64,000 bases of DNA from Maribacter cobaltidurans (GTDB lineage Bacteria > Bacteroidota > Bacteroidia > Flavobacteriales > Flavobacteriaceae), in NCBI RefSeq assembly GCF_002269385.1, contig NZ_CP022957.1:3959001-4023000 (forward strand). Reading direction: 5' to 3'. Positions 24,331-42,027 of the stretch are shown here, piece after piece; position 1 is the stretch's first letter, and the number at the start of each line of letters is the position of its first letter. The position numbers and the translations under genes were made by a program. Under the pieces are notes generated by a model that was given only the letters and a program-made list of their open reading frames with translations, ran no database searches and had not been told where the DNA came from.

Positions 24331-26118
24331 CTAAAAGAAATCACCTTTTCGTTTTTTGCTTCTTCTCTTTCCGGAGTTGGGACTGCTGGAATTTCCTCGA
24401 TCCCTACCCTTGCCACGGCCCTTGTCCTCGCCTTTAAAACTGTTTCTTCTTTTTCCTTTGTCCTTACCGCCTTTACCACGACGTTTACCTCCTCCGCCTC
24501 CGCCTCCGGGGTTTTTGGAGACTTCAACATTAACAAAACGGCCATCTACCTTAAATTCGGTAAATGTGCTAAGAATTTGTTCGGTAACCGATGCTTCTGT
24601 ATTGAAGAAGGAAAAACTTTCCTTTACATCCACCTTGTATACATCTTCCTTTCCTAGGCCTACGGTATCACGGATAAAGTCCTTAAGGGACATCCAATCA
24701 TAACCATCCTTCTCCCCAACATTGATAAAATAGCGGACCGAGCCATTTCCATTGTCCGAATAGGAAACCCTACCGTCATCATTGGACCTTTCCGGGGAAG
24801 AGTTTAAATCTTTGGTCTTATTATAGTAATTGAAGAACCTAGTGAATTCTACGGAAACAATTTTCTTGATAAGCTCTTCCCGGTCAATTCCTTTTAAAAC
24901 ATCATTAATTGCAGGTAAATAGCTATCTACCTCAGGGTTTATTTTGGTATCCTTGATTTTATTGGCAAGGTGATACAACTGTATCTCACATATTTCTATA
25001 CCTGTGGGAATATTTTTCTGGATGAAATCCTGTTTTATCTTATTTTCAATAGCCTTTATTTTGCGCAATTCACTACGCGTAATGATGACCATTGAAATTC
25101 CGGATTTTCCAGCTCTACCTGTTCTACCACTTCTGTGTGTATAGGTCTCTATTTCATCCGGGAGTTGATAATTGATGACATGGGTAATGTCATCAACATC
25201 GATACCTCTTGCTGCGACATCCGTTGCTACCAACATTTGAATTTGCTTCTTTCGGAAGGCGTTCATGACCAAATCTCGTTGGTTCTGGCTGAGGTCCCCG
25301 TGCAAAGCACCGGCATTATACCCATCCTCGATCAATTTTTCGGCTACTTTTTGTGTGTCCCTCTTGGTTCTACAGAAAATCACTGAAAATATATCCGGAT
25401 TGGTATCTGCAAGTCTTTTTAAGGCTGGGTAACGATCCCTGCCACTTACTACATAATACTCATGCTGCACGGTTGAGGCTCCGGAATTTTTGGTTCCCAC
25501 GGTAATTTCCTGTGGGGAATGCATAAACTTTTTGGCAATGACCGACACTTCTTTTGGCATAGTAGCCGAAAACAACCAAGTGGATTTTTCATTGGGTGTA
25601 TTGGAGAGAATATCCTGAATATCTTCAAAGAAGCCCATATTCAGCATTTCGTCGGCCTCATCAAGTACACAATAGTCAATTTTGGTAATATCCACCAAAC
25701 CTCTACTGATCATGTCTTTCATTCTCCCTGGCGTTGCCACCACAATTTGGGCTCCTCGTTTTATCTGTCTAGCCTGCTCCGTGATGCTGGCACCACCGTA
25801 AATGGCCACCACGCTAATATTCTTTTCATATTTGGAATATAGCTGTAGTTCATTGGTAATCTGCAAGCAAAGTTCTCTCGTTGGGGAGAGAATCAACCCT
25901 TGGGTCGTGCGGCTGTTACCATCAATTTTTTGAATTAGGGGAAACCCGAAAGCAGCTGTTTTTCCTGTACCTGTTTGGGCCAGGGCCACTAGGTCCGTGT
26001 CACTTTCCAATAAAATGGGGATTGCTTTTTCCTGTACTTCGGATGGGGATTCAAATCCCATGTCCGACACAGCATTCAATAAGGACTGGTTTAGTCCCAA
26101 TGCTTCAAACTTTGTCAT
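24331..26118 (-). CDS. deaD: DEAD-box ATP-dependent RNA helicase with DbpA-type RNA-binding domain
   Basis: A 595-residue RNA helicase. Motifs: Q motif region at the N terminus, AQTGTGKT near residue 46, VLDEADEM near 150, FSATMP near 182, then the second RecA domain with ARGIDV and HRSGRTGRAG. A DbpA/CsdA-like RNA-binding domain lies about residues 480-555, and the tail (about 555-595) is a Gly/Lys/Arg-rich disordered segment. This layout fits CsdA/DeaD helicases of ribosome assembly and cold adaptation. The long leader upstream hints at RNA-level control. Confidence 0.92.
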   Translation of the reverse strand: MTKFEALGLNQSLLNAVSDMGFESPSEVQEKAIPILLESDTDLVALAQTGTGKTAAFGFPLIQKIDGNSRTTQGLILSPTRELCLQITNELQLYSKYEKNISVVAIYGGASITEQARQIKRGAQIVVATPGRMKDMISRGLVDITKIDYCVLDEADEMLNMGFFEDIQDILSNTPNEKSTWLFSATMPKEVSVIAKKFMHSPQEITVGTKNSGASTVQHEYYVVSGRDRYPALKRLADTNPDIFSVIFCRTKRDTQKVAEKLIEDGYNAGALHGDLSQNQRDLVMNAFRKKQIQMLVATDVAARGIDVDDITHVINYQLPDEIETYTHRSGRTGRAGKSGISMVIITRSELRKIKAIENKIKQDFIQKNIPTGIEICEIQLYHLANKIKDTKINPEVDSYLPAINDVLKGIDREELIKKIVSVEFTRFFNYYNKTKDLNSSPERSNDDGRVSYSDNGNGSVRYFINVGEKDGYDWMSLKDFIRDTVGLGKEDVYKVDVKESFSFFNTEASVTEQILSTFTEFKVDGRFVNVEVSKNPGGGGGGGKRRGKGGKDKGKRRNSFKGEDKGRGKGRDRGNSSSPNSGKRRSKKRKGDFF

Positions 26119-26230
26119 AATATGTTATATACTTAATCGCAAATAAGAATGCTGCTTAGAGGGATTATCCTATATAACCTATTTAGACTCGGCGCAACAC
26201 ATGCTATACTAGCGGCGTTTATTAAAGCGG

Positions 26231-40281: not shown

Positions 40282-42027
40282 ATGGCACAAAAACCATCCA
40301 TACCCAAAGGAACCCGCGATTTTACACCTTCAGAGGTCGTGAAGCGAAACTATATTTTTGATATCGTCAAAAAGCATTTTCAGACTTTTGGTTTTCAGCC
40401 TATAGAAACGCCATCATTTGAGAACTCGGAAACCTTAATGGGTAAGTATGGAGATGAAGGAGACCGACTGATTTTTAAGATTTTGAATTCTGGTGATTAT
40501 TTTGAAAAATTTGCTAGGGATATTATGGAATCTGGTGATTTAAGAAATATTCTCAATGAAAAACTTCAATCATTTTGTTCAGATATAGATTTGCAACTTG
40601 GAGAGAAAATTAGACAAAAGGTTTTAAAGTTTAGTGATTATAATAACAATCAATTTGTAAGTAATACTTATGACTTACATTTTAATTTTTTTACTGAAAA
40701 TTTGAATTCTCGTTTCCAGAATGTTTATTCAATTGCAACTAATGAGTATAAGCATCATTTAATTTCTTGGTCATTTACAGCAATTCGTCAGGGCAGATTA
40801 AGAAATGAAAACATTTCGAATTTTGTTTCTGATGATGTTTTCAATTTTGATTTATCCGATTTTCCTTTTGATGCATTATATGTTGAAACAGTTAAAAAAC
40901 TAATATCAAAACAATTAACGCCCGAAATATCCGAAAAAGCCCTACGATATGATTTAACCGTACCTTTTGCCCGATATGTGGTGATGCACCAAAACGAACT
41001 TGATTTCCCATTTAAGCGCTATCAGATACAGCCTGTCTGGCGTGCGGATAGGCCTCAAAAGGGACGATTTAGGGAATTTTATCAGTGTGATGCCGATGTG
41101 GTAGGTTCCGATTCCTTATTACAGGAAGTAGAACTTATTCAATTGTATGATACCGTATTCACTGATTTAAAATTGGAAGGGGTTACCATAAAATTGAACA
41201 ACCGTAAAATTTTGGCCGGTATTGCCGAAGTTATTGGGGCCAAGGATTTGCTGATTGATTTCACGGTGGCCTTGGATAAATTGGATAAGATAGGGGAGGA
41301 CGGTGTTAAGAAAGAAATGCTATCCAAGGGTATTTCTGAGTCCGCCATTGAAAAAGCATCGCCTTTATTTAATTTGAGCGGCAGTAATGCAGACCAATTG
41401 GAAAGATTGGAAGAGCTGCTCAAAGATTCTGAAGAGGGCAGCAAAGGTGTATCAGAGCTTCGGTTTATTATGGAGACCATTACTAGCCTAGGATTGCAAT
41501 CAGCCAAATTGGTTATTGATGTTACTTTGGCCAGAGGTCTTAACTATTATACTGGTGCTATTTTTGAGGTTGGTGCTCCAGAAGGAGTTTCTATGGGGTC
41601 CATTGGAGGTGGTGGTAGATATGACGACCTTACCGGAATATTCGGACTACCCAATGTAAGCGGGGTAGGTATTTCCTTTGGCTTGGACAGAATTTATTTG
41701 GTATTGGAAGAACTAGGTCTTTTTCCAGAGGCTATAGACCGCTCATTGGATGTCCTTTGCCTTAATTTTGGAACCAAGGAAGGCCTGGCGGCCTTAAAGT
41801 TGACTACGGTCCTAAGAAAGCATGGAGTAAAGGCGGATTTGTATCCTTCGGATGCCAAGCTCAACAAACAGTTCAAGTATGCGAACAATCGCAATGTCCC
41901 TTATGTGATTCTATTGGGAACGGAAGAGTTGAACAACAACTCTTTCGTGGTAAAACATATGGAGAGCGGTAAACAAACTACATTTGCGCTTTCTGAAGTG
42001 GAAACGTTCATAGGAGGTTTACGCTAA
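40282..42027 (+). CDS. hisS: Histidyl-tRNA synthetase with a large in-frame insertion
   Basis: Charges tRNA-His. The frame is open from 40234 but [14 protein letters not shown] at 40282 is the family start; this gives 581 residues, against about 455-470 for related flavobacterial enzymes. Standard parts are present: motif 1 region near residue 40, motif 2 ([21 protein letters not shown], here [10 protein letters not shown]) near 255, HisA motif [13 protein letters not shown] near 415 and the anticodon-binding domain from about 475. Residues about 74-211 replace a loop normally some 20 residues long. The insertion is about 26% G+C by hand count, while the flanks are about 40-43%. The last nine bases overlap the convergent NUDIX gene. 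Confidence 0.93.
40501..40914 (+). other. AT-rich foreign-looking insertion within hisS
   Basis: A 138-codon stretch between the conserved NSGDY and [14 protein letters not shown] blocks. It is Asn/Phe/Ser-rich, stop-free and in frame, with codon choice strongly biased to AT-ending codons unlike the rest of the gene. It contains no intein splice residues and no recognised domain. It falls in the loop between two strands of the class II catalytic fold, just before the LRYDLT strand that borders the active site. Confidence 0.8.

Follow-up and report, generated by a model that had tools for sequence, protein, structure and literature searches.

Aminoacyl-tRNA synthetases with insertion or appended domains carry extra in-frame domains inside or on the synthetase core. 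The synthetase insertion domains known to us are conserved within a lineage, loop insertions are common among synthetases in general, and housekeeping synthetases are regarded as slowly changing core genes. A second system of related layout is found in type I restriction specificity subunits, where target-recognition-domain shuffling exchanges variable cassettes between conserved flanks. The gene for histidyl-tRNA synthetase (HisRS), hisS, in Maribacter cobaltidurans resembles the first system in holding an extra in-frame domain within a synthetase core and the second in setting exchangeable variable cassettes between conserved flanks. It differs from synthetase insertion domains in that, in close relatives, unrelated-looking domains take each other's place within a single loop, some having moved between species, and from restriction shuffling in its carrier, an essential translation enzyme, and in a target that is only putative. 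We know of no swappable hypervariable insertion domain in a synthetase, and the literature searched, which consisted of the opening parts of abstracts and held few subscription journals or preprints, mentions no HisRS insert of this kind. Since synthetase insertion domains are already known, the new part is the swappable hypervariable system and not the single insert.

The gene lies in the window, by which we mean the whole 64-kb stretch of DNA analysed here, and is made up as follows:

40282..42027, + strand: hisS, histidyl-tRNA synthetase, 581 aa; sole match in the genome, with PF13393 and PF03129
40282..40500, + strand: residues 1-73, forming the N-terminal section of the catalytic core, up to and including its last 11 aligned residues (alignment with 17 relatives)
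40501..40914, + strand: hypervariable AT-rich in-frame insert, residues 74-211, insert family F2, a predicted helical domain (alignment, G+C, model)
40915..42027, + strand: remaining catalytic core, from its first 15 aligned residues, and anticodon-binding domain (alignment, Pfam)

The preliminary description of this DNA had reported a stop-free, AT-rich in-frame insertion inside hisS, and this observation is confirmed. A single open frame of 581 codons runs from the ATG at 40282 to the stop at 42027 with no stop inside, and it is matched once in the M. cobaltidurans genome (4.64 Mb, one contig). The product scores 124.2 bits against PF13393 (cut-off 25) and 54.5 bits against PF03129 (cut-off 21), identifying it as HisRS by both its catalytic and its anticodon-binding domain, and within residues 74-211 the search returned nothing except the edge of another synthetase model, below the cut-off of that model. 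Between NSGDY and the 14-residue stretch on the far side of the insert there are 138 codons, compared to 16 residues in 17 insert-free proteins, which makes the enzyme 581 aa long versus the usual ~459 aa. The G+C content of 40501-40914 (counted with the next four codons) is 0.26, compared to 0.38 in the preceding 200 bases and 0.43 in the following 1000 bases, and GC3 is 0.16 in the insert versus 0.42 in the core. Among the 42 stop-to-stop frames of at least 200 aa within the window, this is the strongest internal G+C dip (-0.163, runner-up -0.103). The second strongest dip lies in the frame at 24334-26124 on the minus strand (0.342 versus 0.445). The best PDB sequence match to the window HisRS is 6nhi, a short-loop HisRS with the same loop position; unlike the window enzyme it has no room for a domain there, its matched chain residues being 9-90 and 93-454.

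Across HisRS sequences, this loop exists in nearly two states. Of 178 insert-free records (157 distinct proteins), most of which belong to near relatives of the window organism, 174 share a loop length of exactly 21 residues with the consensus KVDDxxYxSKxS, and carriers have 104-159 residues in its place (79 distinct inserts from 94 records, which include repeats of the same gene). Because the short loop is almost always 21 residues long and keeps its consensus, it suggests a role of its own. Intermediate loops are rare, with 35 residues in two homologues (P0096, P0110) and about 50 residues, between both usual states, in one further gene (locus L050, genome G395). Low G+C is a general property of the inserts: all 67 with available DNA are AT-richer than their own core (mean G+C 0.251 versus 0.379, the core reference being the first 900 bases after the insert), and GC3 is below that of the core in 61 of 65, with a weak correlation to core GC3 (rho 0.45). 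In amino acid composition they favour residues with AT-rich codons, and their net charge is near neutral; some sequence rows begin with M, apparently a TTG read as a start.

Conservation across the lineage, as expected of a synthetase insertion domain, was not found in the genus or the order. A hisS match was present in 58 of 60 genomes, the window's own included, and among the 33 other genomes of the same genus with a match only two carry an insert (G009, locus L052, and G032, locus L053, both read from DNA), one of family F2 and one of family F9; one genome of the genus with a partial match (G035) was left out of the judgement. The match at L052 (G009:C1:1991191-1992931) is divided between two frames with stops near the C-terminus, possibly by an assembly error, in a genome that is 81% complete. 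Carriers number five of 134 matched genomes in an order-wide sample and two of 143 in a phylum-wide sample, the window's own counted in each; in the genus, order and phylum samples non-carriers were judged by frame length, and of the long frames only some, in the order and phylum samples the longest, were read. Of the long frames read, that of G464 holds an insert of 110 residues, those of G495, G499, G491, G628, G596, G620 and G509 are insert-free, and G559 and G581 encode another HisRS type with a short hairpin; frames of about 490-501 aa (e.g. G540 and G476) were left out of the reading. In a sample of the family, 386 of 397 genomes matched and at least 19 carry an insert of this size by DNA reading, a minimum among the 386 since carriers were picked as overlong frames among the best matches listed. 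Among the 120 best homologues listed, 13 also have an insert at this site. A degenerate two-flank DNA pattern run over GTDB species genomes returned 54 stretches, all 54 of them in-frame carriers, 52 ranked as Flavobacteriaceae and two without a family rank; the pattern is limited to inserts of about 102-122 aa and to certain codons in the flanks, making the 54 loci a lower bound and their lengths a biased list.

The domains occupying this loop are diverse. At a BLAST criterion of E < 1e-4 over at least 50 residues, the 79 distinct inserts form 25 families, among them F0 with 19 members, F1 with 18 and F2, the window's family, with 8, and 16 inserts are singletons; under looser settings, 75 inserts sorted into 18 families, with F2 and F5 merged. 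When F0, F1, F2, F3 and F5 were compared by profile in six pairings, hhalign probabilities stayed below 1%, except for F2 against F5 (15.6%, E 0.0017), an alignment limited to the C-terminal part and its shared boundary. No clear kinship among these five families was seen at the level of profiles. In F0 (19 rows), columns with at least 70% conservation hold hydrophobic or aromatic residues in the domain interior, and conserved Lys, Asp, Ser and Lys occur only at the ends adjoining the enzyme, a pattern that looks more like a scaffold than like an enzyme or active site. F1 resembles F0 but shows an Asp in the interior in 15 of its 18 rows, so an activity may be possible there. Neither F1 nor F2, the families searched, has, in the genomes searched, the further genomic copies expected of silent cassettes or a diversity-generating system. 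An F1 profile search of 22 genomes, 16 of them F1 carriers, placed each full match in a frame of hisS length; each of the 16 carriers has one full F1 match, and one of these carriers has an extra fragment at E 0.035. The window's own genome has one F2-profile match up to E 10 and no second copy. With one F1 copy per genome and one F2 in the window genome, silent cassettes are not the source there.

We placed these inserts on a tree of 133 HisRS cores (a quick LG+G4 tree that includes partial rows L074 and L109 and a suspicious long-branch join of L058 with L064). Insert presence and absence requires 27 changes, a number reached by none of 500 label shuffles, indicating that part of the pattern is inherited by lineage; this clustering is partly due to insert-free rows having been drawn mostly from near relatives of the window. 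Single families hardly cluster: F1 needs 15 changes for 18 rows, F0 16 for 19 and F2 7 for 8, and equally low numbers arise from shuffled labels in 34, 43 and 84 of 500 trials, respectively. Nearly identical enzymes occur in both states, as in Cellulophaga baltica, where the cores of L041 (F1) and P0093 (empty) are 99.2% identical, and in Zobellia, where the cores of P0118 and P0070, one with an insert and one without, are 98.9% identical. These pairs bear on the idea that the domain alters the enzyme itself, through dimer contact, tRNA-His recognition or adaptation to temperature or salt. Its position between both parts of the catalytic core would suit such a role, but cores that are about 99% identical with and without the insert indicate that the core needs no property of it, and we consider this explanation decidedly improbable.

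The window insert probably entered its lineage recently, as the preliminary description had proposed from base composition. The nearest core on the tree (L054 in G029, 95% identical) has an empty site, as do most close relatives, and the most similar insert lies in a more distant core. In a comparison of core and insert identities that dropped pairs with fewer than 150 aligned core residues, the window insert was 87% identical to that of P0003, compared to 79% for the C-terminal core, and only 46% identical to that of P0002, compared to 97% for the core; P0007, with an empty site, has a core 96% identical to the window's. Synonymous divergence indicates that some inserts have passed from species to species independently of the core. 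The insert shared by Flavobacterium urumqiense and F. xueshanense has dS 0.12, compared to 1.25 for the core, and their similar tract comprises the insert and about 90 bases before it. Among five pairs subjected to a separate-transfer test, the result was clear for this Flavobacterium pair, L069/L070 (synonymous differences at 7.0 of 62.0 sites in the insert versus 133.9 of 220.3 in the core, Fisher p=1.4e-12) and for two Cellulophaga species, L041/L080 (17.5 of 67.3 versus 159.5 of 232.5, p=6.4e-10), marginal for L079/L090 (p=0.039) and negative for L001/L002 (p=0.13) and L048/L049 (p=0.39). With three of the five pairs marginal or negative, the data point to recent transfer in some lineages and not to a general property of the DNA. 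Many sequence families in one loop, some exchanged between species, are what the preliminary description had missed.

Judged from their codons, related inserts are under purifying selection, and they diverge more between relatives than the enzyme does. Of 30 pairs listed from within families, 23 have a finite dS; in these, insert dN/dS was 0.09-0.39, above that of most cores, with most of the 23 pairs near synonymous saturation; pairwise dN/dS below 1 gave no sign of codon-level positive selection. These values weigh on the proposal that a permissive loop simply tolerates the inserts, which would be nearly neutral elaborations, drifting fast and spreading through ordinary recombination. The general frequency of synthetase loop insertions, the lean of the inserts to residues with AT-rich codons and the partial clustering of presence by lineage would all fit such drift. 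We nevertheless think it unlikely, given dN/dS below 1, loop lengths that are nearly two-state with a conserved short state, and the difficulty of explaining many families in one loop and recent transfer between species without selection.

Structure prediction supports a separately folding domain within the core, a possibility for which the preliminary description had suggested modelling. The full-length AlphaFold model of the window HisRS (19 sequences, mean pLDDT 69.5) reached block means of 89-92 at residues 91-130 and 84-90 at residues 151-170; elsewhere in the insert they were 53-78, and the core was too poor to place the loop relative to the tRNA or to the active site, next to which the preliminary description had put it. 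Modelled alone with short flanks (7 sequences), the insert reached a mean pLDDT of 84.1 and a pTM of 0.78, with predicted helices at residues about 70-111, 117-121, 124-134, 143-155, 157-170 and 196-206. No significant match to this fold was found in the PDB or in viral model libraries; a Foldseek hit to AbiV (E 3.3, probability 0.04) is noise, and a PDB profile match of the insert to hemagglutinin HA2 (E 0.02) was taken as chance.

The window insert has no match in Pfam, PADLOC or PHROG, and the matches of the other 66 inserts are weak. Across all 67 inserts, PADLOC gave 19 families (all 19 listed), each matched by one insert, with a best value of 5.4e-5 and none from the window insert. Among the matches listed (the best 25 of 43 Pfam, all PADLOC and the best 25 of 45 PHROG families), only phrog_2371, a family of unknown function, has matches from several inserts (three, best E 0.0033), and inspection of nine F0 inserts did not reveal which three they are. 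A search for standalone homologues of the insert gave 28 candidates, none at E 1, and a search with the insert region found four HisRS and missed P0002 and P0008 of the same family, showing that it was not exhaustive. Viral contigs yielded no stretch with the pattern for inserts of about 102-122 aa and, for the window's family, 78 pattern stretches with no relative among them, and the window insert was not matched in phage and plasmid records. Seventeen phage records gave HisRS matches, every one with an identity under 60% and none reaching 80% coverage. One unannotated faecal 'Bacteriophage sp.' record (MT836900.1), possibly bacterial DNA, holds a HisRS-like frame 55% identical to the window's. 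The preliminary description had also entertained a parasitic open element. That part of its interpretation finds no support in these searches of databases and of viral, phage and plasmid collections, in the single F2 match in the genome or in the constraint on related inserts; a real, in-frame, probably recent insert, predicted to be a folded domain, is what stands of it.

The main rival to the shield or decoy reading set out below is a sensor or regulatory role, in which the inserts would be sensor, regulatory or defence modules fused to HisRS that bind a ligand or invader protein, throttle charging or act alone, and are swapped like immune modules. The predicted fold of the window's family, the dN/dS constraint, the exchange in some lineages, the AT-richness and the many versions are all compatible with it. 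The interior of F0, however, has no enzyme-like conserved residues, and the window insert has neither a match in the Pfam, PADLOC and PHROG searches nor a homologue outside HisRS in the searches made, unlike most shared immune domains. We regard this role as somewhat unlikely.

An in-frame stretch within an essential gene could also be an intervening sequence removed from the RNA or protein, such as an intron, an excised RNA or an intein. No Rfam intron family matched within 1 kb up to E 1, the window's insert contains no RNA family, and the RNA folds no better than its shuffles (z 0.09), giving no indication of a structured intron or excised RNA of a known family. Inteins begin with Cys or Ser, end with His-Asn and are followed by Cys, Ser or Thr; the insert begins FEKF and neither this nor its last ten residues are intein-type ends. 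Related inserts show coding constraint, and the segment replaces the loop and is not simply added to it. Removal of the segment is scarcely credible on these grounds.

The explanation we prefer, with a probability of roughly 0.4, is that a single HisRS loop carries a swappable, hypervariable accessory domain, of which the window insert is one allele, and that conflict keeps this domain as a shield or decoy. Few exceptions aside, the loop holds either the conserved 21 residues or one of many domains of about 104-159 residues, and alleles would be exchanged through homologous recombination within the stretches of conserved enzyme codons that flank it. From the observed two-state loop, many families and exchange, we infer a function: patterns of this kind are characteristic of loci engaged in conflict with parasites or rivals, which leads us to read the loop as a contact surface for a harmful intracellular factor. 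The conserved short loop could be the docking point of such a factor, for example a phage protein, a toxin of a rival or the product of a mobile element, and a bulky, often changed domain in its place may hide or alter the docking surface and let histidine charging continue. Rare alleles would be favoured, so that many versions and the empty state persist side by side. A HisRS-binding partner, toxin or phage protein is not known to us, and the literature searched, abstract openings and few subscription journals or preprints, contains none.

More tentatively, Flavobacteriaceae HisRS may be a hidden battleground on which a widespread intracellular attacker docks on the KVDDxxYxSKxS loop and whole unrelated domains are swapped in for escape. 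That one loop holds many unrelated-looking, partly transferred domains suggests that HisRS is under strong selection of an unrecognised kind, perhaps from a new class of inhibitors of histidine charging made by phages or rivals. The natural pairs with and without an insert in C. baltica and Zobellia make this idea testable. If it is true, the family would carry, inside an essential enzyme, an allele system comparable to serotype variation on cell surfaces.
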